A stretch of DNA of 46,064 nt. Origin: Gallionella sp. (GTDB taxonomy: Bacteria > Pseudomonadota > Gammaproteobacteria > Burkholderiales > Gallionellaceae). The stretch is taken from assembly GCA_030645775.1 (NCBI GenBank), contig JAUSLX010000053.1, positions 1 through 46,064 on the forward strand, in the 5' to 3' direction. Below are positions 14,199 to 46,064 of the stretch, piece after piece (positions within the stretch are counted from its first letter, which is position 1; every line of letters begins with the position of its first letter). The translations under genes and the position numbers were made by a program. The notes under the pieces were generated by a model. It did no database searches. It was not told where the DNA came from and saw only the letters and a program-made list of their open reading frames with translations.

Positions 14199-14345
14199 TT
14201 TCTCCGTAACTGCCCTGTCAATTGTGTTCCCGGCGCAACGGTGTTGAACACGGTGCCGTATTTCTTCACGTTCTCGTGCAGCAGCGCCAGCCTCCGTTCG
14301 TCTTCGTCCGTATCCACGATGATTTCGTAGCTGATGGATTCTATC
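14195..14345 (-). pseudogene. OsmC-family protein, C-terminal remnant
   Basis: SYEIIVDTDEDERRLALLHENVKKYGTVFNTVAPGTQLTGQLRRK, OsmC-like C-terminus, no N-terminal domain or start. Confidence 0.7.
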
Positions 14346-15099
14346 TTCGGCTGCACATGTCGTGCGCCTCGCCGATCAGCACCGCGTCGTACTGCCCGCC
14401 CGGAATCAGTCCGCTCTCGGCGGCATCGAGCACGGCCTGCACATTGGCAGCCTGCCGCTCCGTAAAATCGGGAATCTCTTTTTCGGTGGGTATCGGCAGG
14501 CCGTAAGTACGCAGCATTTTGTAGCACCAGGCATGGAAGGTCGAAGTGACCACCTTGTCCTCCACCCCTCTGTCCTGCATCACATTTTCCAGCCGCCCCG
14601 AGATGCCGTTCGCAAAACTCAGCAGCAGCAGCACCGGGCGGCTTGCCGCGCGCGCGATCTGCTCGGCGCGGAACGCCAGAATCAGCGTCTTGCCCGAGCC
14701 CGCCACACCGCGCACGATGCGGTGTCCTTCGCCCATGCTGCGCGCCAGCAACTCCTGTTGCATGTCCATCACGTCCAGTATGCGGAAGATGCGGCTGGCT
14801 TCCTGTTCAAGGTAGGGCGCGCGGCAAAACAGCGAGCCGCCTTTGCTCATATCTACCGTGCGGTACAAGCCTGCCCATTCGTACAGGGTTTCGTAGGTGT
14901 CGCGGTGCAGTGCTTTGAAGTAATTCTCGTCGAAGCGGACGGAGGGTTCGAGTTCGGTGATGAAGCGGGTGTAGGCTTGTTGCAGAAGCGTTGCTTCCAC
15001 TTCATGCAACAAGTCCGGCGCTTCTATTCCCAAGCGGTTTTTGGGAATGTCGGTGCCGGTTAGGTAGATGTCACTTTCTGCGAATTGATACTTGGACAC
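14341..15099 (-). pseudogene. Chimeric ORF: Fic-family toxin N-terminus fused in frame to an internal P-loop helicase fragment
   Basis: Residues 1 to about 106 Fic-like (TYETLYEWAGLYRTVDMSKGGSLFCRAPYLEQEASRIF) lacking HPFx[DE]GNGR; residues about 107-248 helicase-like (MQQELLARSMGEGHRIVRGVAGSGKTLILAFRAEQIA...YDAVLIGEAHD) lacking downstream motifs. Confidence 0.75.
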
Positions 15100-15342: not shown

Positions 15343-15465
15343 TCACGCCGCCATCTTCAATTCAACTGTCTTTCCCGCTCTGGTCGCCAGCGTGATCAGC
15401 ATGTCCAGACTGAATTTCTCGAATTTGCCGCGTATCAGGTCTGACACGCGTGATTGCGAGATGTC
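15343..15465 (-). pseudogene. XRE/HigA-like HTH antitoxin, C-terminal remnant
   Basis: Reverse-strand translation LDISQSRVSDLIRGKFEKFSLDMLITLATRAGKTVELKMAA*, no start codon of its own; 5' side fused to acr3. Confidence 0.7.
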
Positions 15466-16475
15466 GAGTACCATCCCTGGCTGCGATTCACGATATACAC
15501 CACGGAGAGCATCACTGGCACTTCAATCAATACTCCAACCACAGTGGCCAGCGCCGCGCCCGATTCGAAGCCGAACAAGCTGATGGCAGCCGCAACCGCC
15601 AATTCGAAGAAGTTGGATGCGCCGATCAAGGCGGAAGGTCCTGCCACGCAATGCGCCTCTCCCACGCGACGATTCAGCCAGTATGCCAATCCCGAGTTGA
15701 AATAGACCTGGATGGTGATGGGCACGGCCAGCATCAGGATGATGAGCGGCTGCTCGACGATGGCCTTGCCCTGAAAGGCGAACAGCAGCACCAGCGTGAG
15801 CAGCAGCGCGGAGATCGACCACGGCCCGATCCTGGCTAAAGTCAGCTCAAAAGCAGCTTGCCCTTTTCTGAGCAACAGCTTGCGTAACAGTTGCGAAATG
15901 ATGACGGGAATGACGATATAGAGCAGCACCGACACCAGCAAGGTATCCCAAGGCACGATGATGGAAGAAAGCCCCAGTAGCAAGGCCACCAAGGGGGCGA
16001 ATGCGAACACCATGATGGCATCGTTGAGTGCCACCTGGCTCAGGGTGAACAGCGGCTCGCCGTTCACCAGGCGACTCCACACGAACACCATCGCGGTGCA
16101 AGGTGCTGCCGCGAGCAGGATCAGACCGGCTACGTAGCTATCCAATTGCTCTGCGGGCAGATACGGGGCGAACAGGTGGCGGATAAATATCCACGCCAAA
16201 AGAGCCATTGAGAATGGTTTTACTGCCCAATTGATGAACAAGGTGACGCCGATACCGCGCCAGTGTTTGCGCACCTCATGCAGGGCGCCGAAGTCGATGC
16301 GCAGCAGCATGGGAATGATCATCACCCAGATCAGCAAGCCGACCGGAATGTTGACCTTGGCGATCTCCAGCGTGCCCAGCCAGTGGAACGGTGCAGGGAT
16401 GGTCTGCCCGAGTATCACACCGACGATGATGCACAGAAAAACCCAAAGGGTGAGGTAACGCTCGAAGATATTCAT
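15435..16475 (-). CDS. acr3: ACR3-family arsenite efflux permease
   Basis: MNIFERYLTLWVFLCIIVGVILG, AAPCTAMVFVWSRLVNGEPLFTLSQVALND, VVYIVNRSQGWY near C-terminus; last about 10 residues come from the adjacent HTH remnant in another frame. Confidence 0.95.
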   Translation of the reverse strand: MNIFERYLTLWVFLCIIVGVILGQTIPAPFHWLGTLEIAKVNIPVGLLIWVMIIPMLLRIDFGALHEVRKHWRGIGVTLFINWAVKPFSMALLAWIFIRHLFAPYLPAEQLDSYVAGLILLAAAPCTAMVFVWSRLVNGEPLFTLSQVALNDAIMVFAFAPLVALLLGLSSIIVPWDTLLVSVLLYIVIPVIISQLLRKLLLRKGQAAFELTLARIGPWSISALLLTLVLLFAFQGKAIVEQPLIILMLAVPITIQVYFNSGLAYWLNRRVGEAHCVAGPSALIGASNFFELAVAAAISLFGFESGAALATVVGVLIEVPVMLSVVYIVNRSQGWYSTSRNHACQT

Positions 16476-16500
16476 GTTTTATCCTTGGCTGATTTTCATA

Positions 16501-16572
16501 GGGTGGACACGTTGTATGTGCCCACGCGTTCCTTCATTTGCGCACCGCGTGGGCACAGAAGCGTGCCCACCC
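16501..16572. repeat. Nested palindromic element between arsA and acr3
   Basis: GGGTGGACACG (16501-16511)/CGTGCCCACCC (16562-16572) and GTGCCCACGCG (16518-16528)/CGCGTGGGCAC (16546-16556). Confidence 0.85.
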
Positions 16573-18314
16573 TACCTTGTTAATTTCAGTAACGCCGCAA
16601 TTCCCACCGGTTCCTCCGCATGTACTGGCACGACAGCGATCCGTTTTGCATAGCGCTGCTGGACTGATTCGAGTTGCTTCCATTCTTGTTCTGCCCTCAA
16701 CGCTAACAGACGAGAAGCAGGATGTGCTGCTGCAAGACTTTGATTGACGATCCATGCCCACGGTGCTATGCCCGCACGGCGCAAATCCTCTTGCAGATTC
16801 GCAGCCTCCAATACAGGTGTGGTTTCAGCCAGCGTCACAATGAGGATGCGCGTGTGTTGCTGATTTTGGAGTTGCATCATCGGTGTGGTGAAGCGCGTGC
16901 TGTCTTTCATGTTGCGCGCGACTTCACGATGGTATGCACCAGTCGCATCCAGCAGCAATAAGGTATGTCCGGTGGGGGCGGTATCCATCACTACAAAGGC
17001 GTGATTCGCTTCACGTATGGCACGCGAGAACGCCTGGAATACGGCGATTTCTTCAGTACAGGGTGAACGTAAATCTTCTTCCAACAAGGCGCGACCTTGC
17101 GCGTCCAGATGCTTGCCTTTGGTGTCGAGTACGTGCTGACGATATCGCTCGGTCTCCGCAATTGGATCGATGCGACTCAAGGTGAGATTCGCCGTATCAC
17201 CGCGCAAGGTGTCCTCCAGATGCGCAGCCGGATCGGAAGTGGTGAGTTGCACTTTATGTCCACGTGCGGCCAATTCGACAGCGATTGCCGCAGCCATCGT
17301 GGTTTTACCCACGCCGCCTTTGCCCATCAACATGATCAAGCCATGTCCCGCCTTCTCGATCTCATCGACTAAAGCCGATAGCCTTGGCATATCCGCTGTT
17401 CGATGCTCCACAGCATCAGGCAACTTGACCGGCTCATCGTTAAGCAGCGCACGCAGCGCATCCACTCCCACCAGATTGAATGGCAGCAGGTCGCGCTTAT
17501 CCGTTGGTAATGCGCGCAACACTTCCGGCATGGCAGCCAGTGCACCCTGTTCGCGCTTCAAGATTGCCGATGCCACAGGGTCGCTCGCTTCGCTTTCCGG
17601 CATACACCCATTCACCACCAGATATTGGTGAGAAAAACCGATATGAGCCAATTCTTCACTGGTGCGTGCCGCTTCTATCAAGGTGGAACGCTGTGCGCGC
17701 GCCACCAGCACTAACCGTGTTCGACGCGAATCGGCGAGTACCCCGACCGCATCACTGTAACGTTGGCGCTGTTTTTCCAGACCAGACAATGGGCCAAGGC
17801 AAGAAGCGCCTTCAGGGTTGTCGTCCAGGAATCCACTCCAGGCACCAGGTAATTGCAGCAAACGAATCGTATGTCCCGTAGGAGCCGTATCGAAGATGAT
17901 GTGATCGAAAGGTTCGATCATGGCCGGATTGGTCAGCAACTCAGTGAACTCATCGAATGCTGCAATTTCGGTGGTGCAAGCACCAGAGAGCTGTTCCTCA
18001 ATGCCACGTACAACGGCTTCCGGCAGCACGCCGCGCACCGGCCCCACGATGCGGTCGCGGTAGGCTTGCGCTGCTGCCTGCGGGTCGATCTCCAATGCAG
18101 ACAGATTACCCACCAAAGGGATGTGAGTGATGGCGTTACCAATCGTGACACCGAACACCTGCCCCACGTTCGAAGCAGGATCGGTGCTCACCAGAAGAAC
18201 ACGCTTCCCCTGATCTGCCAAACATACTGCAGCGGCGCAAGCGAGCGAGGTCTTGCCCACACCGCCTTTGCCGGTAAAGAACAGGAATTGAGGAGCATCT
18301 TTTAGCAGTTTCAT
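16572..18314 (-). CDS. arsA: Arsenical pump-driving ATPase, two-domain
   Basis: Two P-loops FFTGKGGVGKTS and LMGKGGVGKTT, two DTAPTGHT signature motifs. Confidence 0.97.
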   Translation of the reverse strand: MKLLKDAPQFLFFTGKGGVGKTSLACAAAVCLADQGKRVLLVSTDPASNVGQVFGVTIGNAITHIPLVGNLSALEIDPQAAAQAYRDRIVGPVRGVLPEAVVRGIEEQLSGACTTEIAAFDEFTELLTNPAMIEPFDHIIFDTAPTGHTIRLLQLPGAWSGFLDDNPEGASCLGPLSGLEKQRQRYSDAVGVLADSRRTRLVLVARAQRSTLIEAARTSEELAHIGFSHQYLVVNGCMPESEASDPVASAILKREQGALAAMPEVLRALPTDKRDLLPFNLVGVDALRALLNDEPVKLPDAVEHRTADMPRLSALVDEIEKAGHGLIMLMGKGGVGKTTMAAAIAVELAARGHKVQLTTSDPAAHLEDTLRGDTANLTLSRIDPIAETERYRQHVLDTKGKHLDAQGRALLEEDLRSPCTEEIAVFQAFSRAIREANHAFVVMDTAPTGHTLLLLDATGAYHREVARNMKDSTRFTTPMMQLQNQQHTRILIVTLAETTPVLEAANLQEDLRRAGIAPWAWIVNQSLAAAHPASRLLALRAEQEWKQLESVQQRYAKRIAVVPVHAEEPVGIAALLKLTR

Positions 18315-18336
18315 GTAACTTACCTTATGGTGTGTC

Positions 18337-18711
18337 CTAGCAGCACTTGCTACCCGAACAACATTCATCGGACTTTACTTCTGTCACTGCCATCGCCCCC
18401 AGGGCTTCAGAAAATCCGGCGAAGCGTGCCAACTCTTTGCGTGTCGGATAGCGTCCAGCCATGACAATTTCCCCGTCGAGCAGGATCAACGGCAGACCTT
18501 CCGCCCCAGAACGCTCAAGAAAACCTTTGACTACTGCACTGTCGGCAAATGCCATCGGTTGCTGCGCGAGGTTGAAGCGTTCGATGTGTCCACCTGCATG
18601 CTTAAGCCAATCCACATCAGCGCTGAAATCCACCAGCGCCTGATCCACTTCAGTTCCACATACGCCCGTGCTGCAACACAAAGCCGGATCGAATACTTGT
18701 AGCTTCTTCAT
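18337..18711 (-). CDS. arsD: Arsenite metallochaperone
   Basis: MKKLQVFDPALCCSTGVCGTEVDQALVDFSADVDWL; C-terminal DECCSGSKCC. Confidence 0.95.
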   Translation of the reverse strand: MKKLQVFDPALCCSTGVCGTEVDQALVDFSADVDWLKHAGGHIERFNLAQQPMAFADSAVVKGFLERSGAEGLPLILLDGEIVMAGRYPTRKELARFAGFSEALGAMAVTEVKSDECCSGSKCC

Positions 18712-18722
18712 GGCAGCCTCTA

Positions 18723-19220
18723 TCAATCCTTAGTACAACCAATTTCGCTCAACCTGTCTTTCAAGGCCAGTTTGTCGAGCTTCTCGATAGGCAATGACAT
18801 GAACAAACCGATACGACGCGCCAACTGTTCCGCTGCTTTGTTGAATGCAGCACGACGCGCATCGTCGCCTTCGATATGTGCCGGGTCTGGTATGCCCCAA
18901 TGCGCAGTCATCGGAGCGCCATACCACACAGGACAAATCTCACCTGCTGCGTTATCGCAAACGGTGAATACGAAATCAAATGCAGGCGCGCCTGGAGCGG
19001 AGAATTCGTCCCAGCTTTTGCTGCGCAGACCTTCGATACTGTGACCATGCGCCTGTAACCACTCGATCGCACCAGGATTGACCTTGCCCGCAGGCTTGCT
19101 ACCGGCGCTGTATGCCTTGAATTTGCCTTTACCCAGGCTATTGAACAGCACTTCGCCCAAGACGCTTCGGGCGGAGTTGCCCGTGCACAGGATCAGTACG
19201 TTGTATTGCTTTTCACTCAT
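18723..19220 (-). CDS. arsC: Arsenate reductase, low-MW phosphatase type
   Basis: NVLILCTGNSARSVLGEVLFNSL, FDFVFTVCDNAAGEICPVWYGAPMTAHWGIPDP. Confidence 0.95.
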   Translation of the reverse strand: MSEKQYNVLILCTGNSARSVLGEVLFNSLGKGKFKAYSAGSKPAGKVNPGAIEWLQAHGHSIEGLRSKSWDEFSAPGAPAFDFVFTVCDNAAGEICPVWYGAPMTAHWGIPDPAHIEGDDARRAAFNKAAEQLARRIGLFMSLPIEKLDKLALKDRLSEIGCTKD

Positions 19221-23992: not shown

Positions 23993-25600
23993 ATGTTATT
24001 CAATTCCTACGGCTTTATCTTTCTCTACCTGCCCGTAGTGTTGCTGGGTTTCTTTCAGCTCGGGCGGATAAGTCACACGTATGCAGCGGCCTGGCTGGCA
24101 TTGGCCTCGCTGTTCTTCTACGGCTACTGGACTCCGGCCTACGTCGGGTTGCTGCTTATTTCCATCGTATGCAACTACGCATTCGGGATGTGGATCGCTA
24201 AGGCCAGAGTCAGGGCTGAGCAACGAGGACTGAGGACTGAAACATCAGCACCCGGAACCCAGTCCTCAGCACTTAATCCTCAACGCCTGCTGATCATCGC
24301 GCTCGCCGCCAATCTGGTTTTGCTCGGCTATTACAAATACGCCAATTTCTTTGTCGCCAACCTTAATCCGCTGCTCGGCGCAGACTGGAATATGGCTAAC
24401 ATTATCCTGCCGCTGGGTATCTCGTTCTTTACCTTCACCCAGATCGCTTATCTGGTGGATACCTATCAGGGGAAAGTGAAGGAATACAATTTCGTTCATT
24501 ACCTGTTGTTCGTGACCTATTTCCCCCACCTGATCGCAGGGCCGGTACTGCATCACAATGAGATGATGCCGCAGTTTGCCCGAACTTCAACGTATCGTTT
24601 CAGCTACGAAAACATGTCAGTGGGTCTGACCATCTTTTTCATCGGTCTGTTCAAGAAGGTCATTCTGGCGGATGGGCTTGCCGTTTATGTCGGTCCGGTT
24701 TTCGATGCCTCAGCGTCAGGTGTCGAACTCAGCTTCATTGATGCCTGGGGCGGCGCCTTGTGCTACGCGCTGCAACTGTATTTCGACTTCTCCGGCTATT
24801 CAGATATGGCGATCGGCCTGTCACGAATGTTCGGCGTGACCCTGCCTTTAAACTTTTACTCACCCTACAAATCGGCCAATATCATCGAATTCTGGCGTCA
24901 CTGGCACATGACCCTGTCGCGTTTCCTGCGCGACTATTTGTATATCCCGCTGGGTGGCAACCGCAAGGGCACGGCGCATCGCTACCTGAACCTGATGATC
25001 ACCATGCTGCTCGGCGGCCTGTGGCACGGGGCGGGCTGGACTTTTGTGGTGTGGGGCGGACTGCACGGTCTGTACCTGATCATCAACCACGGATGGCATG
25101 CGCTGCGCCGTGCGCTGGGGCAGGATATCAAGGCGCCGCTCTCCCAACCGGCAAAAGCGGCCGCCGTGCTGCTCACCTTCCTAGCCGTGGTTGCGGCATG
25201 GGTCGTGTTCCGTGCCGACAACCTCAGTGCCGCCACAGCCATGCTCAAGGCCATGTCCGGTCTGAACGGGTTTGTCCTGCCGGATGCGTGGCTGCCAAAA
25301 TGGGGAATATTCGGTCAGTGGCTGTCCGCGCAGGGCGTGACTTTCGGCGCAACCAACGATCTGATCATGGGCGGCGCCCTCAACTGGATATGGATTTCCT
25401 TGCTCATCGTCTGGTTCGCGCCCAACACCCAGCAGATCATGGCAGCTTATAAACCCGCACTGGATATGCCTGAAGGCAGCGCGGCTAGGCGCCTGTTGTG
25501 GCGGCCTTCGGCACCCGCTGCGCTCATCGTCTGGTTGCTCGGCTTTATTGCGATCATAAATTTGAACAAGCAGTCGGCGTTTCTGTACTTTCAATTCTGA
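23993..25600 (+). CDS. MBOAT-family O-acyltransferase (AlgI-like)
   Basis: FNSYGFIFLYLPVVLLGF, LQLYFDFSGYSDMAIGLSRMFGVTLPLNFYSPYKSANIIEFWRHWHMTLSRFLRDYLYIPLGGNRKG, LGGLWHGAGWTFVVWGGLHG. Confidence 0.95.
   Translation: MLFNSYGFIFLYLPVVLLGFFQLGRISHTYAAAWLALASLFFYGYWTPAYVGLLLISIVCNYAFGMWIAKARVRAEQRGLRTETSAPGTQSSALNPQRLLIIALAANLVLLGYYKYANFFVANLNPLLGADWNMANIILPLGISFFTFTQIAYLVDTYQGKVKEYNFVHYLLFVTYFPHLIAGPVLHHNEMMPQFARTSTYRFSYENMSVGLTIFFIGLFKKVILADGLAVYVGPVFDASASGVELSFIDAWGGALCYALQLYFDFSGYSDMAIGLSRMFGVTLPLNFYSPYKSANIIEFWRHWHMTLSRFLRDYLYIPLGGNRKGTAHRYLNLMITMLLGGLWHGAGWTFVVWGGLHGLYLIINHGWHALRRALGQDIKAPLSQPAKAAAVLLTFLAVVAAWVVFRADNLSAATAMLKAMSGLNGFVLPDAWLPKWGIFGQWLSAQGVTFGATNDLIMGGALNWIWISLLIVWFAPNTQQIMAAYKPALDMPEGSAARRLLWRPSAPAALIVWLLGFIAIINLNKQSAFLYFQF
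24217..24282. repeat. Convergent 7-bp repeat arrays inside the MBOAT gene
   Basis: TGAGCAA CGAGGAC TGAGGAC TGAAACA (24217-24244) and inverse GTCCTCA GCACTTA ATCCTCA (24262-24282); TGAGGACTG/CAGTCCTCA inverted repeat. Confidence 0.8.
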
Positions 25601-25602
25601 CC

Positions 25603-26790
25603 ATGAACACACGGCATAAACATTATTTCCAGATACTGACAGCCAGTTTTTGCGCGACGCTGCTGCCCGTTTTCGCCCTGAACATGATTCTGCTCAACGA
25701 CACCCTGGGCAACAACCGGAAAGTGCTGCTCGCCAGCCAGTGGCAGCAGCGTACCCAGGGTGTCACTTACGCACCGACCCTGAGCGACACCCATCTGTTC
25801 AAAACGCTGCGCCTGCTCGATCGACTGCCGGAAATAAACACCGTGGTATTCGGCTCTTCCACCGCTCTGGGCATCGCGCAGCAAGCATTCCCGGACACCC
25901 TGCATCTGTACAACTATGCGCAAACCGGACACGCGCTCAGTTCAGTCATAGGCGAAGCGGAGTATATCCAGCGTCATTCCGCAAACGTGAAATGGCTGAT
26001 CATCCCACTGGACTGGTCACTGGGATTCATCTATCAACAGGGCACCCCGCCCGATGCCGATCTTTCCGCAACAACCGTCAGGCAGGCAACGCAGGCCGAG
26101 GTAAAACCGGCGCCCCTGCCGGAGAGAATGCGTGATGCACTGTCCTATCCGCGCATCAGCAGCCTGTTCGAAATATTGAACAATATCCGTCGCGCCGAGG
26201 ATAAGACTGCCGCCTTCAGCGGCTATTTCCTGCAAGACGCAAGCGATGATTACCGTTGCGCCGACGGCACGCCCGGCAAGGATTTCGACACCATTTATCG
26301 CGGCACCTGCACGGGTTTTCGCCACGACGGCAGCGCCACTTTTGCCAATTCGTCCCGGGTGGGCAATCCGCGTTCACTGATTCTTGCCTCAACCTCATCC
26401 CATTCCCAATATCGCCAGAATCTGCTATCGACTGACGGCTCGCCCAACCCGATTTTTTTGCAGCGCCTCGCTGAACTGGGCAGGCAGGCAAAACAGAACG
26501 GCGGAGGGGTGATTTTATTTTTGCCGCCTCTGTTGCCGGGAGTGGAGGTCGAATTTCTCCGACATCCGCAACTGAGGCCTGCACTGCAAAAAACCAAACA
26601 AACGCTGGCCGACTGGGCCAAAGAAAACAAGCTGACCCTGCTGGACGCGGGACAATCCGAACGATTTGATTGTCAGCCCGATGAATTTCTTGACACGCAC
26701 CATGCCGTATCAAGCTGTTACAACAAAATCTTTCAGTCATTCCGGCGCGATGCACTGCGCCCGGATGGCACCATATCGCTACCGGCCTGA
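25603..26790 (+). CDS. AlgJ/DltD-like SGNH-fold exported protein (putative acyltransferase partner)
   Basis: N-terminal TM anchor; VVFGSSTALGIAQQAFPDTLHLYNYAQTGHALSSVIGEAEYI resembles a GDSL/SGNH block; directly downstream of MBOAT. Confidence 0.6.
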   Translation: MNTRHKHYFQILTASFCATLLPVFALNMILLNDTLGNNRKVLLASQWQQRTQGVTYAPTLSDTHLFKTLRLLDRLPEINTVVFGSSTALGIAQQAFPDTLHLYNYAQTGHALSSVIGEAEYIQRHSANVKWLIIPLDWSLGFIYQQGTPPDADLSATTVRQATQAEVKPAPLPERMRDALSYPRISSLFEILNNIRRAEDKTAAFSGYFLQDASDDYRCADGTPGKDFDTIYRGTCTGFRHDGSATFANSSRVGNPRSLILASTSSHSQYRQNLLSTDGSPNPIFLQRLAELGRQAKQNGGGVILFLPPLLPGVEVEFLRHPQLRPALQKTKQTLADWAKENKLTLLDAGQSERFDCQPDEFLDTHHAVSSCYNKIFQSFRRDALRPDGTISLPA

Positions 26791-26794
26791 AACC

Positions 26795-28192
26795 ATGACA
26801 CACACCCGATCTTTTCTCCTTCTGTGCCTTGCAGCCGCGTTGAGTTTGCTCACCGCATTCAATCATTATTATGTCGGCGAAGAGGCCATCTTTCCGATCA
26901 CCTCCATGGAAATGTGGCAGCGCGGCGCGTGGCTCAAGCAGTATCTGTATGGCGGCGATGTCCAGCACAACCCGCTGTTCAACTGGCTGATCATCGCCAC
27001 CTCCAATCTGTTCGGCTGGCCTCATGTATTGGAGGTCGCGCGCGGACTGACCCTCAGCGCCACGCTGGCCACGGCCGCAGTGTTGTACTGGCTGGTCTTG
27101 CGCTTATTTCTTGAGCGCAGCTTTGCTGTCTTTGCCGCGCTGATTTATCTGACTTTCGACGATGTGCTGATGTACCACGGCTGGCTGGCCTACGTGGATC
27201 CGTTGTTTGCGCTGTTCATCTTCACGTCCATCGCCACGCTGTGGGTCGCTTGCGCGGAACAACGCCGCAGCCTGCTATGGCTCGCGGCCATCGCACTGAC
27301 CTGTGCCTTTTTAAGCAAGGCGTTCACCGCCTATGTATTTTACGGCACCAGCCTGCTGGTGCTGGCACGTGTGTCCGCCTACCGCAAGGTTCTGCTCAGC
27401 CCCGCGTCGCTGGCGGCGCATGCCGTCATGCTGGCTGCACCACTGATCTGGTTTGCGATTATTCCCGCCGGGCATGGACAAAGCGGGCGCATGTTCGATG
27501 AAATCCTCGCCAAACTTGCCCTGCCCAACATCGGCGACTACCTCACCAAACTGTTGCAGTACCCGCTGGAAGTCTGGTCAGGCTTACTGCCAGCCGGCAT
27601 ACTGTTCGCTTACTTCGCCCTGCGCGGAAGAATTACCCAGGAAGAAATCCAGCCTCTGCACTTTCGCAACGCAGTGCTGATCGCAGCGCTGAATTTTCTG
27701 CCCTATTGGCTCGCGCCGCACAGCGGGGTACGCTACCTGATGCCGATCTATCCGCTGTTCGCACTGATTACCGCACGACTGATCTGGCGTGCGGGCAACC
27801 CGGCCTTACTCACCACCCGCCGCTGGCTGACCGCCGCCATCGCGTTCAACTTTGTTCTTGGCCTGGTGGCTTTTCCCTATTACCAGCATCAATACCGGGG
27901 TGAAAACTACGCGCTGACCGCCGCCAACATCATTACCCTCACCCGTGAGCAAGCGCTCTATGTTAACGACGTGACTACCAACGGCCTGAACGTGGCGGCC
28001 TACATCAATCAGCAACGCTATCCGATGCAGGCACTGCAATTCCCTCCGCCCGAGCTGGAATCCGGATTCATCATCTCCATGACAGCTGATCCCGAAGCAG
28101 AAAAAAACGTAAAAGCGTACCAACTCGGGGGAGACAAACTTTATTTGCTGTGTCGCGGGACTGCCTGCCAGACTGGATTAACGATAAAATGA
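26795..28192 (+). CDS. GT39/ArnT-like membrane glycosyltransferase
   Basis: Multi-TM; N-terminal YVGEEAIFPITSMEMWQRGAWLKQYLYGGDVQHNPLFNWLI; PHSGVRYLMPIYPLFAL. Confidence 0.8.
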   Translation: MTHTRSFLLLCLAAALSLLTAFNHYYVGEEAIFPITSMEMWQRGAWLKQYLYGGDVQHNPLFNWLIIATSNLFGWPHVLEVARGLTLSATLATAAVLYWLVLRLFLERSFAVFAALIYLTFDDVLMYHGWLAYVDPLFALFIFTSIATLWVACAEQRRSLLWLAAIALTCAFLSKAFTAYVFYGTSLLVLARVSAYRKVLLSPASLAAHAVMLAAPLIWFAIIPAGHGQSGRMFDEILAKLALPNIGDYLTKLLQYPLEVWSGLLPAGILFAYFALRGRITQEEIQPLHFRNAVLIAALNFLPYWLAPHSGVRYLMPIYPLFALITARLIWRAGNPALLTTRRWLTAAIAFNFVLGLVAFPYYQHQYRGENYALTAANIITLTREQALYVNDVTTNGLNVAAYINQQRYPMQALQFPPPELESGFIISMTADPEAEKNVKAYQLGGDKLYLLCRGTACQTGLTIK

Positions 28193-28217
28193 ACTCATTG
28201 CTCCCTGTGTACGCGCT

Positions 28218-29342
28218 ATGAAACCCATCCCGTTCAACAAACCTTTCATCATCGGCCGCGAACTTTCGCTGATTGCCGATGCCGTGGCACAAGGCCATCT
28301 CTCCGGCGACGGCGCCTACACCAAACTATGCCATCGCTGGTTTGAAGAAAAGCTGGGCTGTCACAAGGCTTTGCTCACCCACTCCTGCACCGGCGCGCTG
28401 GAAATGGCCGCGATACTGTGCGACATCCAGCCCGGCGACGAAGTCATTCTGCCCTCCTACACCTTTGTTTCCACCGCCAATGCCTTCGTGCTGCGCGGCG
28501 CCGTGCCGGTGTTTGTGGACATCCGCCCGGATACGCTGAACATCGACGAGAATCTGATCGAAGCCGCCATCACCCCCAGGACCAAAGTTATCGTGCCGGT
28601 GCATTACGCGGGCGTGCCGTGCGAGATGAATGCCATCATGGACATCGCCCGGCGGCACACCCTGCTGGTTGTGGAAGATGCCGCGCAGGCGCTGCTCTCC
28701 ACCTATCAGGGCCGTGCACTGGGCAGCATCGGGCATTTTGGCTGCCTGAGTTTCCATGAAACCAAGAATATTATCAGTGGCGAGGGTGGCGCGTTACTGG
28801 TGAACGACGCGCGCTTTGCTGAACGCGCCGAAGTCATCCGCGAGAAAGGGACCAACCGCAGCCAGTTTTTCCGGGGCGAGGTGGACAAGTACACCTGGAT
28901 GGATATTGGCTCGTCCTATCTGCCCAGCGAACTGGTCAGCGCCTTTCTCTACGCGCAACTGGAGCGCGCCGGCGAGATCATCGCCAGACGGCGCAGCATC
29001 TGCAGCGCTTACGCGACACAGCTCGCCCCGCTGCAACAACGGCTGCACATCGCAGACTTTGACGAAGACAGCAACGGTCATCTGTTCTACGTCCTGCTCG
29101 ACAGCCTGGACACGCGCAGCCGCTTGATCGCGCACCTCAAGTCACAGGGTATCCACCCGGTATTCCATTATGTGCCGCTGCACTCTTCCCCGGCCGGACG
29201 CCGCTACGGACGCGAGGGCAGCGGCATGCAGGTCACCAACGACCTGAGCGAACGTCTGCTGCGACTGCCACTGTTTTATGAAATGAGCGCGGACGACATC
29301 ACGCGCATCACTGCCGCTATTCGTGAATTCTTCATCGACTGA
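28218..29342 (+). CDS. wecE: dTDP-4-amino-4,6-dideoxygalactose transaminase
   Basis: IPFNKPFIIGRELSLIADAV, HSCTGALEMAAILCDIQPGDEVILPSYTFVSTANAFVLRGAVPVFVDIRPDTLNIDE, SFHETKNIISGEGGALL. Confidence 0.93.
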   Translation: MKPIPFNKPFIIGRELSLIADAVAQGHLSGDGAYTKLCHRWFEEKLGCHKALLTHSCTGALEMAAILCDIQPGDEVILPSYTFVSTANAFVLRGAVPVFVDIRPDTLNIDENLIEAAITPRTKVIVPVHYAGVPCEMNAIMDIARRHTLLVVEDAAQALLSTYQGRALGSIGHFGCLSFHETKNIISGEGGALLVNDARFAERAEVIREKGTNRSQFFRGEVDKYTWMDIGSSYLPSELVSAFLYAQLERAGEIIARRRSICSAYATQLAPLQQRLHIADFDEDSNGHLFYVLLDSLDTRSRLIAHLKSQGIHPVFHYVPLHSSPAGRRYGREGSGMQVTNDLSERLLRLPLFYEMSADDITRITAAIREFFID

Positions 29343-29353
29343 CGGGCTATAAA

Positions 29354-29716
29354 TCAACCCTGGCTCGCTACCGCCAACCCCAGCACAATCAACGCGACGC
29401 CCACGACCTTGAGCAAGGTAACCGGCTCCTGAAAAAAGAACCCGCTGGCCAGCAGCACCAGCACGAACGTCAGCCCCATGAAGGGGTAGGCGTGGCTGAG
29501 CTGCAACCGGGTCATCGCGGCCATCCAGAAGAACGAGGCGAGAAAGGCAGCGGCGAGCGCACTCACGATCCACGGGTTCAGTAACAGATGCAGCATAAAG
29601 CTGATCTTTTCCCACGTTCCTTCAGGCAGCGCGCCGACTTTGAGCACTTGCCATTTGATGGCGATCTGGCCGTACACGGTCAGCAGTATGGTTAAAAAAA
29701 TGTAGAAATAGCTCAT
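29354..29716 (-). CDS. Small 4-TM EamA/SMR-like transporter (ArnE/ArnF-like)
   Basis: 120 aa, four hydrophobic helices, MAAMTRLQLSHAYPFMGLTFVLVLLASGFFFQEPVTLLKVVGVALIVLGL. Confidence 0.82.
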   Translation of the reverse strand: MSYFYIFLTILLTVYGQIAIKWQVLKVGALPEGTWEKISFMLHLLLNPWIVSALAAAFLASFFWMAAMTRLQLSHAYPFMGLTFVLVLLASGFFFQEPVTLLKVVGVALIVLGLAVASQG

Positions 29717-29723
29717 AGTGGAT

Positions 29724-30392
29724 TCACGGCGTCATGCGGTGGTAAATGTCCTGCGGATGGCTGAATGAAAACCCCAGCGAGACATACAGATTAAGGACGG
29801 CGAGATTGCCGGCGGAAATGGAGCTTTTCACTTCTTCATGCCCCAGCGCCAGCAGTTCACCGCACACTGCACTCCACCAGTATTTAGCCCGTCCCTGACC
29901 GCGATGCTGTTCTGCCACCGCGTGCAACACGAGATTATTGCCGCTGTAAGCGATGAATCCCGCCAGCGCGCCCTGCCAGTACAAGCCGTAAACCTGCCCT
30001 GTTTCGAGCAATTGCTTCAGCCAATTGTCATAGCGCAGATCGGCGCTGTCTCTGGACAACATAAAATCCCGGTGAAAACGACCGTGCGCAAACGCGCCGT
30101 GGCAAATCGACAGCGCCTGTTCAGCGCTGACCACTCTGGAAATGGTCGCATCCGTATGCTGCAGCTTGCGCAAGCGGGCCGCATTGCAATGCGGTTCTAT
30201 CAGCGTATCGCAGTAATAAAAACCGTATTCGTGCAGCAGGCGTTTATCCGCCAGAGGATCGACCTTGAGGGTGTGATGGCCTGTAGTCTGCGCCGCCTGT
30301 TGCAGTGCCGCTTCGGAATATTCGAGCAGCTCCCAGGTATTGATGCCGAACGCCGCCGTATCCCACGGCGTGTGCTTAATCAAGGCGCTCAT
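29724..30392 (-). CDS. GNAT N-acetyltransferase, WecD-like
   Basis: TPWDTAAFGINTWEL start and VAEQHRGQGRAKYWWSAVCGELLALGHEEVKSSISAGNLAVLNLYVSLGFSF GNAT core; next to wecE. Confidence 0.75.
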   Translation of the reverse strand: MSALIKHTPWDTAAFGINTWELLEYSEAALQQAAQTTGHHTLKVDPLADKRLLHEYGFYYCDTLIEPHCNAARLRKLQHTDATISRVVSAEQALSICHGAFAHGRFHRDFMLSRDSADLRYDNWLKQLLETGQVYGLYWQGALAGFIAYSGNNLVLHAVAEQHRGQGRAKYWWSAVCGELLALGHEEVKSSISAGNLAVLNLYVSLGFSFSHPQDIYHRMTP

Positions 30393-31323
30393 CAAAGGTA
30401 GCCCGCCTGACGATATACAGTGGCCGCTTCTTGCTTTCATCGAAGGTCTTGCCCAGATAGATTCCGATGATGCCGAGGATGGAGATAATGATGCCGCCGA
30501 TGAAATACAGTGAGACGATCAGACTGTTCCAGCCGGGAATCGGCGAACCGTATAACAAGGCATGCCCCAGAATGTACATGCCGTAGCAAAAGGAAAAGAA
30601 GGCCATCAAAAAGCCGAAACGCACCGCCAGCCGTAGCGGTTTATCGGAATAGGCGATGATGGTCTCGGCGGCGAGCTTCCACAGTTTTGCGAAGGTATAG
30701 GTGGAATTCCCTTCAAAGCGCCCGGCGTGTTCCACCTCGATGCTATCGGTAGGGAACCCCAGCCACTGCACCAACCCGCCGAAGAAACGCAATTGTTCGC
30801 GCATGCGCAAAAAACTCACCACAACCTTGCGCGACATAATGCGAAAATTGCCGGTCTGTCCGTCGTAGTCGATATCTGCAAGATAGCTGAACAGCCGGTA
30901 AAACAGCCATGATGTGAGGCGTTTGAGCAGCGGATCACGCCGCGCGCCGCGCCGCGCCAGCACAACGTCAAAGCCCTGCTGCGCCCGTGCATACAAACGT
31001 GGAATTTCTTCCGGCCTGTCCTGCAAATCGCAATCCATCACCACCACCCAGTCGCCACGACAGTGATCCAGCCCGGCGGTAATGCCATAGTGCTGGCCGA
31101 AATTGCGGCTGAACTGAATGCCGCGCACGCGCGGATCGGCGGCGGCCAGCCGTGTTATCGCCTGCCACGACCCGTCGCCGCCGCAATCTTCGACCAGCAC
31201 GATTTCAAAATCCGGCGAGATGCTCTCCAGCGCGGTTTTAAGACGTCGATACAATTCATCCAGGCAATGCTCGGCCTTGTATACCGGGATGACGACTGAA
31301 AGAAGAGGAGAAGGATGACTCAT
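30376..31323 (-). CDS. GT2 polyprenyl-phosphate glycosyltransferase, ArnC/GtrB-like
   Basis: LLSVVIPVYKAEHCLDELYRRL, GDWVVVMDCDLQDRPEEIPRL, two C-terminal TM helices ending IGIYLGKTFDESKKRPLYIV. Confidence 0.88.
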   Translation of the reverse strand: MSHPSPLLSVVIPVYKAEHCLDELYRRLKTALESISPDFEIVLVEDCGGDGSWQAITRLAAADPRVRGIQFSRNFGQHYGITAGLDHCRGDWVVVMDCDLQDRPEEIPRLYARAQQGFDVVLARRGARRDPLLKRLTSWLFYRLFSYLADIDYDGQTGNFRIMSRKVVVSFLRMREQLRFFGGLVQWLGFPTDSIEVEHAGRFEGNSTYTFAKLWKLAAETIIAYSDKPLRLAVRFGFLMAFFSFCYGMYILGHALLYGSPIPGWNSLIVSLYFIGGIIISILGIIGIYLGKTFDESKKRPLYIVRRATFDERLD

Positions 31324-31333
31324 TTTTACTTAT

Positions 31334-32563
31334 TTACTCCCGCTGACCGCGAAATGTGTTTGACCCTAACGGGCATGGCGAGCAGCCACCCCTGATAATG
31401 AAACTCGCCATGCCCGTTCCCCCCTTTCCAATTGCCCCTCGCTGCGCTCTCCCCCACGCAAGCGAGGGAAAGCGCAAACGAAGCGCTGCGCGAGTTTCAC
31501 GATAAAGCGGGTGTCGCGACGATTGGCCCGCCAAAAATTCCCGGTAAATTATCTCATATTCAAGCGCCACTTCCTGCCAGCTTCGGATGAATCGGGGCGG
31601 CTCGTCGCTGCGCCCCAGTTGTTGTTCCACCGCGCTTGCCCATTCCGCGCTTGAGGCGGCAAGCGCTAACACCCTGCCCGCCCCCGGGGTGACTTGCGGC
31701 GCCGCGCCGCACACATCGGAGATCACCACCGGCACCCGGGCCGCCATCGCCTCGCTGATTACCATGCCGTAAGGTTCTGCCTTGGCGGGGTGCAGCAACA
31801 CGTCGAACTCGGCATAGTGAGCCTGATCGCTCCAGCCCAATAGTCGATAGCCGCCCTGCCAGCCGACAAACAGATGTTGCACCTCTTTAACCTCGGGGCC
31901 CACCACGCACAGTTGCAAATCGGGGCGCGAACGGCGCAATTGCGCAACGATTTCCGCCGCCAGAGGCAGGCCCTTGCGCTGCCACTCTCTTCCGACAAAA
32001 CCGATAATTCCGCCTCCGGCTGGAACACGGTGCGATTCGCGCAGCACCGTTGCCGCCACACCCGGCACGACAGGTTCCGTCAACTTGTGCGCCAGCTCGG
32101 GATAATAATGCGCCAGCTGTTTGCTGATGAATTGCGAATTCGGCACGATATGTGCCGCGACCGAAAGCTCGCGCCGTTCCAGAAACAATTGCATCGCCAC
32201 GCGCAACGAAATCAATCGCCACCACGGTTTTTCAAAAACAGTGGCAAACGGCGGGCCGTGAAAGGTGGTGATGTGATGTGAACTCAAGCGCTCGTGGCTG
32301 TGTATCACACTATCCGGACGCGGGTTCGCCTCCAGCCAGTGCGCCACCCGCTTGCCAAAACGCAGCAAAGCCAGCCAGCGCGGGCGCGGCGCAATCGTGC
32401 CCAGCTCGTGAACGACGATACCTGCGGGTTTTTCGGCCAGGCATATTTCGCACAGCACTTCGACCTGATGACCGAGATCGCGCAGCTCGCGGGTGATTTC
32501 CCACACATAGCGTTCCATGCCGCCGACCGGACCATAGCGGCGCACCACATGCAGCAATTTCAT
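31334..32563 (-). CDS. GT4-fold (group 1) glycosyltransferase with repeat-derived C-terminus
   Basis: MKLLHVVRRYGPVGGMERYVWEI, GFVGREWQRKGLPLAAEIVAQL, LLHPAKAEPYGMVISEAMAARVPVVISD; last 60 or so residues encoded within a repeat element. Confidence 0.88.
   Translation of the reverse strand: MKLLHVVRRYGPVGGMERYVWEITRELRDLGHQVEVLCEICLAEKPAGIVVHELGTIAPRPRWLALLRFGKRVAHWLEANPRPDSVIHSHERLSSHHITTFHGPPFATVFEKPWWRLISLRVAMQLFLERRELSVAAHIVPNSQFISKQLAHYYPELAHKLTEPVVPGVAATVLRESHRVPAGGGIIGFVGREWQRKGLPLAAEIVAQLRRSRPDLQLCVVGPEVKEVQHLFVGWQGGYRLLGWSDQAHYAEFDVLLHPAKAEPYGMVISEAMAARVPVVISDVCGAAPQVTPGAGRVLALAASSAEWASAVEQQLGRSDEPPRFIRSWQEVALEYEIIYREFLAGQSSRHPLYRETRAALRLRFPSLAWGRAQRGAIGKGGTGMASFIIRGGCSPCPLGSNTFRGQRE
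31368..31418. repeat. Palindromic repeat family A, copy 3
   Basis: AACGGGCATGGCGAG (31368-31382)/CTCGCCATGCCCGTT (31404-31418), perfect 15-bp arms, 21-nt loop. Confidence 0.95.
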
Positions 32564-41598: not shown

Positions 41599-42732
41599 TC
41601 ATGCCGACAAGCCCATAAGCCAGTTAGCGGCATCAGTAATCCTGATCCCATTGCGGAACTCTTCCTGACGCAATCCATAAACGATCTGAACAGACTCCGT
41701 ATCAGGAAACTGTCCGGCAAATCGCAACAGGCCTCGATGCGGCTTATTGTCACCCAACTTGCATTCAATCATTTGTGTCAACGCACCTGCCTCGCTGAGT
41801 GCAAAATCGACTTCCGTGCCATCTTTGGTGCGAATGTAATGCAGGCCAGCCGTTTTCCCCGCGCTATCCTGTAAAAAATGCACATGCTTCAGCAGCATTC
41901 CCGCTACCGCATTTTCAAGGCGCACCCCCTGATCCCCTCGAACCAGCCCTGTATCAAAAAAATACACTTTAGGACTTTGCAAAATAGCGCGGGCAATATT
42001 GTGATGCCATGGCTGAACGGTGAAAACGATATACAACGCCTGCAGAATATCCAGATAGCGCTTCAATGTCGCAGGTGAAACTGCCAGATCGCGCGCGATA
42101 GATGCCAACGAAAGCGGCGACCCTACGCGTTCGCGCAACAACTCCACAAACAGGCGCATCGTATTGATTTCGTGCAGACGTGAAAATTCCAGCACATCTT
42201 CACGAATCAGATCGTTGAAATACTGAGCACGCCAGCGATCAGCCTGCACGATGTCAGTAGCCAAGCATGGCTCGGGAAAGCCGCCTCTTTCCAGCAAATG
42301 ATCCAAGGCATCGGCGGGCGTCACCTGCCGCTGTTCACTCCACTCGCGCACCGAAAACGGGTGCAAACGGAATGCAAAATAACGACCCGCCAGTGAATCT
42401 CCACCTTGCCGAAATGTTTCCATGCGCGCACTACCCGTCACCAGCAGAGCCTGCTCCGGCGCACGCCCATCCACCACTCCCTTCAGCCAACCTTTCCAGT
42501 CACGCATTTTGTGAATCTCATCCATGACGAGCAGCTTGGCGCGTGGATTCCATGACTGTCGCTGCAACACAACCCGGTCCGGCAACACATCCCAGTTGAG
42601 GTATTGAGCATTCCCGAACAACTGCGTCAACTGACGGGCAAGCGTGGTTTTCCCCACCTGCCGCGGGCCAGTCAACACCACCATCTTGGCGGTCAAATCC
42701 TTCAATACCAATTCGTCGAGATAGCGTTTCAT
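41599..42732 (-). CDS. AAA ATPase with DUF4143 domain
   Basis: MKRYLDELVLKDLTAKMVVLTGPRQVGKTTLARQL, LLVMDEIHKMRDWKGWLKGVVD, TKDGTEVDFALSE C-terminal nuclease-like motif. Confidence 0.9.
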   Translation of the reverse strand: MKRYLDELVLKDLTAKMVVLTGPRQVGKTTLARQLTQLFGNAQYLNWDVLPDRVVLQRQSWNPRAKLLVMDEIHKMRDWKGWLKGVVDGRAPEQALLVTGSARMETFRQGGDSLAGRYFAFRLHPFSVREWSEQRQVTPADALDHLLERGGFPEPCLATDIVQADRWRAQYFNDLIREDVLEFSRLHEINTMRLFVELLRERVGSPLSLASIARDLAVSPATLKRYLDILQALYIVFTVQPWHHNIARAILQSPKVYFFDTGLVRGDQGVRLENAVAGMLLKHVHFLQDSAGKTAGLHYIRTKDGTEVDFALSEAGALTQMIECKLGDNKPHRGLLRFAGQFPDTESVQIVYGLRQEEFRNGIRITDAANWLMGLSA

Positions 42733-43029: not shown

Positions 43030-43575
43030 TCACTCGAACAGCTCCGCTTCAGCGAAAACTCTTCCTTGCGCATCTTTGGCAGAAAGCACCGGCGCTGCCG
43101 TCAGCTGCCAGTCTATCGCCAATTCGGCATCGTCCCAACGCAGGCAGCGCTCGTGTTCCGGGAACCAGTAATCCGTCGTCTTGTAGAGAAATTCCGCCAT
43201 GTCAGACAACACGACGAAACCGTGCGCAAACCCTTCCGGTATCCAGAACATGCGCTTATTCTCGGCTGACAATTCCAGTGCCACATGCTGCCCGAAGGTA
43301 GGCGAGCTTTTGCGTATATCCACTGCGACATCCAGCACAGCGCCCTGTACCACACGCACCAGCTTGGCTTGCGTATGCTGAATCTGATAGTGCAGACCCC
43401 GCAACACATTTTTCGCAGAACGCGAATGATTGTCCTGCACAAAGTCCACATCACGACCGATCAGCTCAGCAAATTTGAGCCGATTGAAACTCTCATAAAA
43501 GAACCCCCTGTCATCGCCAAACACGCGGGGTTCGATGATCAGCAGGTCTGGAATGCTGGTTTGAATCGCTTTCAT
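43030..43575 (-). CDS. rmlC: dTDP-4-dehydrorhamnose 3,5-epimerase
   Basis: [51 protein letters not shown]. Confidence 0.97.
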
Positions 43576-44459
43576 GCTATTTTGCCTTCTCTGAGTACCT
43601 GCATCAGATACGCGCCGTAACCGCTCTTGATCAGCGGCATGGCCAACCTTTCCAGCTGAGCTGCATCAATAAATCCGTTGCTGTAGGCGATTTCTCCCGG
43701 GCAGGCGATTTTCAGCCCCTGGCGTTGTTCTATGGTCTGAATGAACTGACTGGCGTCGAGCAAGGACTCATGCGTGCCGGTATCCAGCCAGGCAAAACCG
43801 CGTCCCATGGTTTCCACCGACAGGCGATTCTGCGCCAGATAGAGGCAGTTGATATCGGTAATTTCCAGCTCGCCGCGCGGCGAAGGTTTGAGACTGGCTG
43901 CCATGTCCAGCACGGCATTATCGTAGAAATATAACCCGGTGACGGCATAGCTGGACTTAGGCTTCAGCGGCTTCTCTTCCAGCGAAATAGCCTGTCCATC
44001 CTTATTGAACTCTACGACGCCATAACGCTCCGGATCGCGCACATGGTAGGCAAAAACGGAGGCACCCTGCTTGCGCTGCGCGGCATTGCGCAACTGTTGC
44101 TGAAAATCGTGGCCGTAAAAAATATTGTCGCCCAGCACCAGTGCCGAAGGATCGCGGCCTATGAATTCACGGCCTATGATAAAGGCCTGCGCCAGCCCGT
44201 CCGGTGAGGGTTGAACGGCATATTGCAGATTCAATCCCCAGCTGCTGCCATCCCCCAGCAACTGTTGAAAACGCGGCACATCCTGCGGCGTCGAGATAAT
44301 CAGAATGTCGCGTATTCCGGCCAGCATCAGCGTGGAGAGCGGATAGTAGATCATCGGTTTGTCATATACCGGCAACAGTTGCTTGGAAACTGCCAGCGTG
44401 ACCGGATGCAATCGCGTACCCGAACCGCCGGCGAGGATGATGCCCTTCCTTTGAATCAT
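43572..44459 (-). CDS. rmlA: Glucose-1-phosphate thymidylyltransferase
   Basis: [53 protein letters not shown]. Confidence 0.98.
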
Positions 44460-45340
44460 GATTGTTTCTCCAAAATTTCAGTAAGCATCCGCTCCACACC
44501 TGGCTGCCAGTGCGGCAAATGCAGGTCGAAGGTACTTCTTAACTTAATCGTATTCAGACGCGAGTTATGCGGGCGTTTGGCGGGCGTTGGAAAGACTGAG
44601 GTCGGCACAGCTTCAATCGTTGCTGCCTTGAGCGACATTCCTGCCTGCCTGGCATAGTCGAGTACGAAACGGGCATAGCCGTGCCAGGAGGTCTCGCCAC
44701 TTGCTGTCAGATGATACAAACCTGAAACTGCTTCGTTATGTTGTGCTGTACGGATGGCGTGAGCAGTCACATCGGCCAGCAAATCCGCGCCAGTTGGCGC
44801 GCCGATCTGATCGTCGATGACCTTCAGACTGTCGCGCTCTTGCGCCATTCGCAGCATGGTTTTGGCAAAATTCCCGCCGCGTGCGCCATAAACCCAACTG
44901 GCACGGAAGATAAGGTGACGGCAACCCGATTGCTGAATGAACTGTTCGCCCTCCAGCTTGGTCGCGCCGTACACACTCAAGGGGCCGGTAGCATCTGTTT
45001 CCAGCCAGGGCTTGTCGCCGCTACCGTCGAACACGTAGTCAGTTGAATAATGAATAAGCAATGAATTCAGTAATTTAGCCTCATTCGACAGTGCGGCAGG
45101 AGCTAACGCATTGATCGCCCGCGCCAGATCAGGTTCGCTCTCGGCCTTGTCCACCGCGGTATGCGCGGCGGCATTGACAATGACATCGGGCGCAACCGTA
45201 CGCACCGTCCGGGTTATAGCATCCAGATCAGTCAAGTTTAAATCATCGGAACCCAGCGCGACCACGTCACCCAGCGGCGCCAGGCTGCGCTGCAACTCCC
45301 AGCCCACCTGACCGTTTTTACCGAGCAGCAGTATTTTCAC
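44456..45340 (-). CDS. rmlD: dTDP-4-dehydrorhamnose reductase (GTG start)
   Basis: [59 protein letters not shown] at 45340 abuts rmlB stop. Confidence 0.96.
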
Positions 45341-46064
45341 TACGCACGCTCTGCGTAGTTTTTTTCGACCCACTGCCGGTAATTCCCCGACAGCACGTTG
45401 TTCACCCAGTCCTGATTGTCCAGATACCATTGCACTGTCTTGCGGATGCCGGTCTCAAAGGTCTCGGCCGGCTTCCAGCCCAGTTCGCGCTCGATCTTGC
45501 GTGCGTCAATGGCGTAGCGGCGGTCATGACCGGGTCGGTCGGTGACGAAAGTGATAAGACTGCGGTAAGTGGGGGAATGGTGAGTGGTGAGTGGTGAGTG
45601 GTGAGTTTCCCCACTGACCACTTCCAACTTACCACTGAGCGTAGTGGTCGCAGCGCAGGCTGCGGGCACCGCACGGCCTACCCCTTGCGGGCATACTACT
45701 TTCAACTCACTACTTGCCAGTTTCATGGGGCGCAGCTCATCCAACAGGTCGCAGACGATGTGCACGATGTCGAGATTGGCCTTCTCGTTCCAGCCGCCGA
45801 CGTTGTAGACCTCGCCCGGCCGCCCCTTTTCCAGCACACGACGTATCGCGCTGCAATGGTCCTTGACGTACAGCCAGTCGCGGATCTGCTGACCATCGCC
45901 ATACACCGGCAACGATTTGCCCGCGAGTGCATTGACAATCAGCAGCGGAATCAGCTTTTCTGGAAAATGATAAGGGCCGTAGTTGTTGGAGCAATTGGTA
46001 GTTAGTACCGGCAAACCATAGGTGTGATGATAGGCGCGCACCAGATGATCGCTGGCGGCCTTGC
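45340..46064 (-). CDS. rmlB: dTDP-glucose 4,6-dehydratase, 5' end outside window
   Basis: [67 protein letters not shown]; contains in-frame repeat insertion. Confidence 0.96.
45564..45715. repeat. Convergent 7-bp repeat arrays inside rmlB
   Basis: Four exact GGTGAGT units (45579-45606) flanked by GGGGAA/TTCCCC; inverse CCACTGA CCACTTC CAACTTA CCACTGA (45611-45638); ACTACTT TCAACTC ACTACTT (45695-45715). Confidence 0.88.

Follow-up and report, generated by a model that had tools for sequence, protein, structure and literature searches.

A cassette of genes in a lipopolysaccharide (LPS) region of an iron-oxidising Gallionella-type bacterium probably encodes a three-component periplasmic glycosylation system, with a GtrB-type glycosyltransferase, a small flippase and a GT-C transferase. 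The system would have its own supply of undecaprenyl phosphate (Und-P)-linked, N-acylated 4-amino-4,6-dideoxygalactose (Fuc4N), with an envelope glycan as acceptor. The DNA analysed, here called the window, is a stretch of 46,064 nt from Gallionella sp. (Gallionellaceae; contig JAUSLX010000053.1, assembly GCA_030645775.1). A first-pass annotation had proposed an Arn-like pathway at positions 23993–32563, in which a deoxythymidine diphosphate (dTDP)-4-amino-4,6-dideoxyhexose replaces 4-amino-4-deoxy-L-arabinose (L-Ara4N). The pathway reading is supported, and the architecture is that of three-component glycosylation with pathway parts from the Arn and enterobacterial common antigen (ECA) systems.

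Parts of the proposed route are known from Escherichia coli. RmlA and RmlB would supply dTDP-4-keto-6-deoxyglucose, which WecE would aminate at C4 to give dTDP-Fuc4N, the galacto stereochemistry being predicted. The WecD-like GNAT would N-acylate this sugar, most simply by acetyl transfer to give dTDP-Fuc4NAc. The family 2 glycosyltransferase (GT2) would then move the single sugar onto Und-P, and the SMR protein would flip the product across the membrane. In the periplasm, the ArnT-fold GT-C enzyme would attach the single N-acylated Fuc4N to an envelope glycan, through a linkage that is likewise predicted. The MBOAT/SGNH pair may optionally O-acylate the product.

Exchangeable slots and co-conservation

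When 84,980 genomes were scanned with the GT2 alignment alone, 80 named loci were returned; with two duplicate records removed, the distinct GT2 loci number 86. Within 6 kb of the GT2 gene, these loci contain WecE (62 loci), an N-acyltransferase (66), a flippase (59) and a methyltransferase (39). Among the 64 distinct loci with at least 4.5 kb downstream of the GT2, the corresponding numbers are 53 for WecE, 55 for the N-acyltransferase and 48 for the flippase, with all three present in 38. From the two WecE genes that this genome has in its 2.28 Mb, a random 12-kb stretch is estimated to contain WecE about 1% of the time, and the observed recurrence of the gene set is far above chance. GT2, N-acylator, flippase and WecE are thus strongly co-conserved, and the lack of co-conservation that would have refuted the Arn-like proposal is not observed.

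In the slot between GT2 and flippase, 51 loci have a GNAT that is WecD-like or related to it, 7 have a hexapeptide acyltransferase and 7 a formyltransferase; these types overlap in only one of the 66 loci, which was scored for two. All three are known routes for the N-acylation of 4-amino-4,6-dideoxy sugars. The flippase slot is filled in 59 of the 86 distinct loci, either by an SMR protein (43) or by GtrA (PF04138; 16), and never by both. This alternation, in a single slot, of unrelated enzymes for which the same reaction is expected is the best evidence that the WecE product would be N-acylated, loaded onto Und-P and flipped. Where the GT-C family of the window is absent, unrelated multi-transmembrane proteins of 400 to 800 residues often adjoin the cassette; their size and topology suggest that these are putative GT-C enzymes.

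Cassettes of this kind are found in Beta-, Gamma-, Zeta- and Deltaproteobacteria, Cyanobacteria and one Bacillota genome. Outside Gallionella-type genomes, the genes usually form one operon; the convergent, non-standard layout emphasised in the first-pass annotation is real here, but specific to Gallionella-type genomes. An msbA-type gene adjoins many of the betaproteobacterial copies, and the cluster representative scores above the MsbA model cut-off (782 vs 602 bits). About half of the cassettes (L018/L039, L024, L065, L087 and others) include an S-adenosylmethionine (SAM) methyltransferase whose N-terminal part carries a zinc-ribbon-like motif of four cysteines, and which may O- or N-methylate the sugar. 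In the Gram-positive Pullulanibacillus pueri (L113), GT2, WecD-like GNAT, SMR protein and WecE adjoin an rmlA gene.

The order was covered by 150 genomes, of which 17 carry relatives of the GT-C protein; in seven of the 17 (L018, L019, L021 to L025) the gene has a close GT2 and a related aminotransferase alongside. L018 has, in place of the SMR protein, a GtrA protein whose family was established on a relative, and additionally a zinc-ribbon SAM methyltransferase. The aminotransferase of L024 is closer to ArnB/PseC than to WecE, yet falls below the ArnB and PseC cut-offs; the assignment of L024 as a 3-amino-sugar locus was dropped, its presumed FdtA, a small open reading frame, resembling a C-terminal piece of RmlA.

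Converse searches were made with the GNAT and with WecE. Among 369 genomes of the class, the GNAT profile found two carriers, namely the window genome and G153, both with the gene in such a cassette; in G153 it is accompanied by WecE, GT2, a methyltransferase and a multi-transmembrane protein. The curated WecE search gave 22 carriers among the 150 genomes of the order. Eight of these (G000, which is the window genome, G024, G010, G037, G046, G082, G124 and G090) have a close GT2 cassette. In six, WecE is adjoined by a GT2 of this type that is less closely related (241 to 300 bits), and in one by GtrA plus methyltransferase, while no such GT2 was found at WecE in the remaining seven. WecE is adjoined by a GtrB/ArnC-type GT2 in about 14 of the 22 genomes.

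Properties of the cassette proteins

WecE lies above two curated equivalog cut-offs (NF008687, 596 bits, cut-off 375; TIGR02379, 561 bits, cut-off 435), the model passed being that of dTDP-4-amino-4,6-dideoxygalactose transaminase. Its closest solved structure, 4piw, is a WecE entry. Sugar supply was attributed earlier to rmlA and rmlB at the right end of the window; both are present there, as part of a fuller set that comprises rmlC, rmlA, rmlD and a partial rmlB.

The proposed WecD-like character of the GNAT is borne out by profile and fold. An hhalign profile alignment with E. coli WecD is collinear and runs end to end (E = 2.9e-6, 198 columns). The first PDB match of the AlphaFold model (predicted local distance difference test, pLDDT, 95) is WecD 2fs5, with the same fold over the full length (E = 1e-12, TM-score 0.76/0.77). 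A phmmer search with the single GNAT sequence did not find WecD; only the profile and fold comparisons did. The GNAT of the relative L113 matches the WecD model at 24.6 bits (cut-off 219).

The GT2 had been described as ArnC/GtrB-like. It matches both, but is nearer to GtrB (sll0501, 209 bits) than to ArnC (161 bits), these being its best solved structures, and the alignment shows the DxD motif and two hydrophobic C-terminal helices. The small SMR/EamA protein likely flips the Und-P-linked sugar, in a direction that is predicted. Arn requires an ArnE + ArnF pair, whereas the cassette has one SMR gene, and in this respect it is not an Arn system.

For the GT-C protein, PDB sequence searches with the protein and with its profile gave no matches. 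Its AlphaFold model (pLDDT 91) finds ArnT 5f15, with bound undecaprenyl phosphate, as the first PDB match (E = 3e-9, TM-score 0.70), in keeping with the GT39/ArnT-like assignment made earlier; the top matches are ArnT, ALG12, AglB and PglB. The profile also aligns with the ArnT homologue of the same genome (E = 4e-8). The Arnt_C domain (PF18583) was not found in the window GT-C, but is present in that homologue. With a GtrB/DPMS-type GT2, a small flippase gene and a GT-C fold, the window holds all three components of such systems, and an Und-P-linked monosaccharide is the predicted donor.

Several observations weigh against the proposed system or narrow its scope. The product is a prediction from the genes. 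The SMR protein scores below threshold (ArnF, 51 bits, cut-off 99; ArnE, 34 bits, cut-off 92), the GNAT has no NCBIfam match and so does not reach the curated WecD score, and the GT-C sequence matches are borderline, with PF02366 just at the cut-off. Of the eight GT2 seeds, seven had been taken from WecE loci; the sample is biased accordingly, and the counts therefore describe one GT2 subfamily and not GT2s generally. Since the methyltransferase is frequent in related cassettes and there is none near that of the window, the sugar may differ among genomes. The Bacillota copy shows that LPS is not the acceptor in every genome.

Acceptor and competing readings

The predicted acceptor is most likely the LPS core or O-chain, because LPS core genes (waaA, heptosyltransferase) and a gene of the O-antigen-ligase family are present in the window and an msbA-type gene adjoins copies of the cassette in other betaproteobacteria. 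Lipid A is possible; it is not favoured because the GT-C lacks Arnt_C and a better ArnT homologue, with this domain, is encoded elsewhere in the genome.

It is rather unlikely, though conceivable, that the same Und-P-aminosugar pathway serves a GT-C that glycosylates proteins, as in PMT-like O-glycosylation, or some polymer other than LPS. The PF02366 and PMT_2-type matches in the GT-C would fit this, as would the Gram-positive copy and the several unrelated GT-C-like neighbour families, from which acceptors clearly vary. On the other hand, the window and its nearest relatives lie among LPS genes, the msbA-type neighbour recurs in other betaproteobacteria, and the best fold match is ArnT, ahead of oligosaccharyltransferases and PMTs.

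A true Arn-type variant, in which the GT-C decorates lipid A phosphates and lowers the surface charge, is improbable. ArnT as top fold, the ArnF/ArnE-like flippase and the msbA-type neighbours of some relatives are all consistent with it; however, an N-acylated sugar would carry no positive charge, the annotated neighbour clusters include no recurrent deacylase gene, and besides its Arnt_C domain the nearer ArnT homologue has its own SMR and DegT genes on another contig.

That WecE and the GNAT feed a cytoplasmic O-antigen repeat unit (undecaprenyl diphosphate, Wzx/Wzy), with GT2, SMR and GT-C handling another sugar, is very improbable: O-antigen-type genes (WbpL-like, WbpM-like, Wzy_C) do occur in the same window and some WecE genes of the order lie in loci without such a GT2, but the combination of GT2, acylator, flippase and WecE is found in several phyla, mostly as a single operon, and a GtrB/ArnC-type GT2 adjoins the majority of the WecE genes in the order.

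Comparison with known systems

The three-component reading places the cassette closest in architecture to Gtr O-antigen glucosylation, which consists of GtrA, GtrB and a Gtr-type GT-C (PMC11127046). In both cases the GT2 loads one sugar onto Und-P, the flippase is small and the periplasmic GT-C variable, and some relatives of the cassette have GtrA itself in the flippase slot. In the window, by contrast, cassette enzymes would make the sugar as a dTDP-4-amino-4,6-dideoxyhexose, and the flippase is an SMR protein. Three-component pentofuranose systems have been described for mycobacterial decaprenylphosphoryl arabinose (DPA) and for Citrobacter youngae O1/O2 (PMC11127046). These also use one lipid-linked sugar, a small exporter (SMR in the mycobacterial case) and a GT-C transferase, but build the sugar on the lipid from phosphoribosyl pyrophosphate, with no nucleotide sugar.

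With Arn/Pmr, which transfers L-Ara4N to lipid A, the cassette shares a DegT-family 4-aminotransferase, a GT2 acting on Und-P, an SMR-type flippase and an ArnT-fold transferase. It differs in its predicted use of a dTDP-6-deoxyhexose instead of a uridine diphosphate (UDP)-pentose, and in WecD-like N-acylation in place of formylation by ArnA and its removal by ArnD. It further has one SMR gene and no Arnt_C, where Arn has ArnE + ArnF and an ArnT with Arnt_C. No formyltransferase or deacetylase is among the annotated genes of the cassette region; other contigs were not searched for these. Of the Arn-like pathway proposed at first, the logic holds, but the cassette lacks formylation/deformylation and a flippase of two subunits, and its GT2 resembles GtrB more than ArnC.

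WecE is routinely annotated as an ECA enzyme, and the likeness to ECA lies in WecE and WecD-like enzymes that would make dTDP-Fuc4N(Ac). However, WecF (PF07429) and WzyE (PF06899) were not found in the window genome (92% complete), with the E. coli control positive, and ECA membership was rejected on this ground, and with it the intact ECA set that the first-pass annotation had listed as a refuting outcome. The proposed route would place the sugar on Und-P only, and not on a lipid II intermediate.

In open-licence papers, an Und-P-linked 4-amino-4,6-dideoxyhexose from a WecE cassette was not found described, though an earlier description may exist elsewhere; where WecE was looked for together with GtrB, ArnC/ArnT or GT39, or Fuc4NAc as a sugar linked to Und-P, the only papers that came up were on ECA and on Und-P or LPS in general. 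The loci probably represent a widespread, modular and undescribed form of surface glycosylation, which uses Und-P-N-acyl-4-amino-4,6-dideoxyhexose from a WecE cassette with exchanged acylator, flippase and GT-C, and which WecE would chiefly serve in the order of the window, rather than ECA-type repeat units. The results suggest that the role of WecE in many bacteria is to provide periplasmic transferases with one aminosugar carried on a lipid. If so, the donors of three-component systems would extend beyond hexoses, pentofuranoses and Ara4N to 4-amino-4,6-dideoxyhexoses, and unreported envelope sugars would be predicted in iron oxidisers, methylotrophs and cyanobacteria. Three acylators, two flippases and several GT-C families would also provide natural exchangeable parts for studying sugar recognition by flippases and GT-C enzymes.

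Locus organisation and neighbouring genes

All eight genes of the first-pass annotation are present as open frames, at the positions given or very close to them, with matching families (Table 1). Starts were refined for the SGNH-like gene (~25603, previously 25498), the GNAT (~30392, previously 30440) and the GT4 gene (~32560). With these, the forward run of MBOAT, SGNH-like, GT-C and WecE genes has intergenic gaps of 2, 4 and 25 bases. The reverse run of GT4, GT2, GNAT and SMR genes has gaps of ~10 and 7 bases and one overlap, of ~17 bases, between the GNAT start and the GT2 stop. The two runs converge, the stop ends of the WecE and SMR genes being 11 bases apart.

Table 1. Positions and assignments of the cassette genes and associated features in the window.
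Feature	Position	Strand	Basis and remarks
MBOAT O-acyltransferase (DltB/AlgI type), optional accessory	23993..25600	+	PF03062, 123 bits
SGNH-like periplasmic partner of MBOAT	25603..26790	+	Weak DUF1574 match; FGSS and D-x-H-H motifs
GT-C glycosyltransferase (GT39/ArnT-like fold), putative terminal periplasmic transferase	26795..28192	+	Predicted fold; PF02366 borderline
WecE, dTDP-4-keto-6-deoxyglucose 4-aminotransferase	28218..29342	+	NF008687, TIGR02379; PDB 4piw
SMR/EamA protein with four transmembrane helices, likely Und-P-sugar flippase	29354..29716	-	ArnF/ArnE-like, below cut-off
WecD-like GNAT N-acyltransferase	29724..30392	-	PF13673/PF00583; profile and fold match to WecD
GT2 polyprenyl-phosphate glycosyltransferase (GtrB/ArnC type)	30376..31323	-	PF00535; DxD motif
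GT4 glycosyltransferase, LPS-region neighbour	31334..32560	-	PF13692/PF00534
rmlC, rmlA, rmlD, partial rmlB	43030..46041	-	PF00908, PF00483, PF04321, PF16363; source of dTDP-4-keto-6-deoxyglucose and dTDP-L-rhamnose

The MBOAT protein has DltB as its best NCBIfam model (183 bits, below the cut-off of 375). Its gene is a neighbour of the GT-C gene in many relatives, though not in all, and is paired there with the SGNH-like gene; because they adjoin it in some relatives only, MBOAT and SGNH are regarded as accessories, and the optional O-acylation suggested earlier is retained as such. The GT4 enzyme, which had been included in the gene set, is outside the conserved module: it is present in 16 of 88 GT2 loci, mostly in Gallionella-type genomes, and was rejected as a pathway member.

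The locus is an LPS region of a Gallionella-type bacterium; the closest named genomes by GT2 identity are metagenome-assembled genomes of Gallionella (97% and 96%). To the left of the cassette lie apaH (named from its own sequence) and waaA. To the right are genes for an acyltransferase of AT3-SGNH type, another GT2, a Wzy_C protein, a WbpM-like dehydratase, a transferase resembling WbpL/WecA and a GT9 heptosyltransferase, together with the rml genes.

Two other contigs of this genome carry related genes. Contig C43 (L121, 1-13214) has a methyltransferase, a second WecE (635 bits, TIGR02379), a PMT_2 multi-transmembrane protein, rmlB, rmlA and rmlC; it begins inside the methyltransferase gene, and the GT2 of this cassette may be off the contig. 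Contig C94 (L120, 1-5660) has a zinc-ribbon SAM methyltransferase, the ArnT homologue with Arnt_C, an ArnF/E-like SMR protein and a DegT aminotransferase without a clear assignment to ArnB, PseC or WecE.

Elsewhere in the window, arsenic genes at 15435-19220 encode an ACR3 efflux protein (382 bits, cut-off 283), a two-domain ArsA ATPase (902 bits, cut-off 650) and a divergent ArsC-like protein. A frame at 14341-15099 weakly matches Fic/VbhT-type proteins and the start of a UvrD-type helicase, and is perhaps a degraded or fused gene. Finally, an AAA_14/DUF4143 ATPase (41599-42732) sits between the heptosyltransferase and the rml genes.

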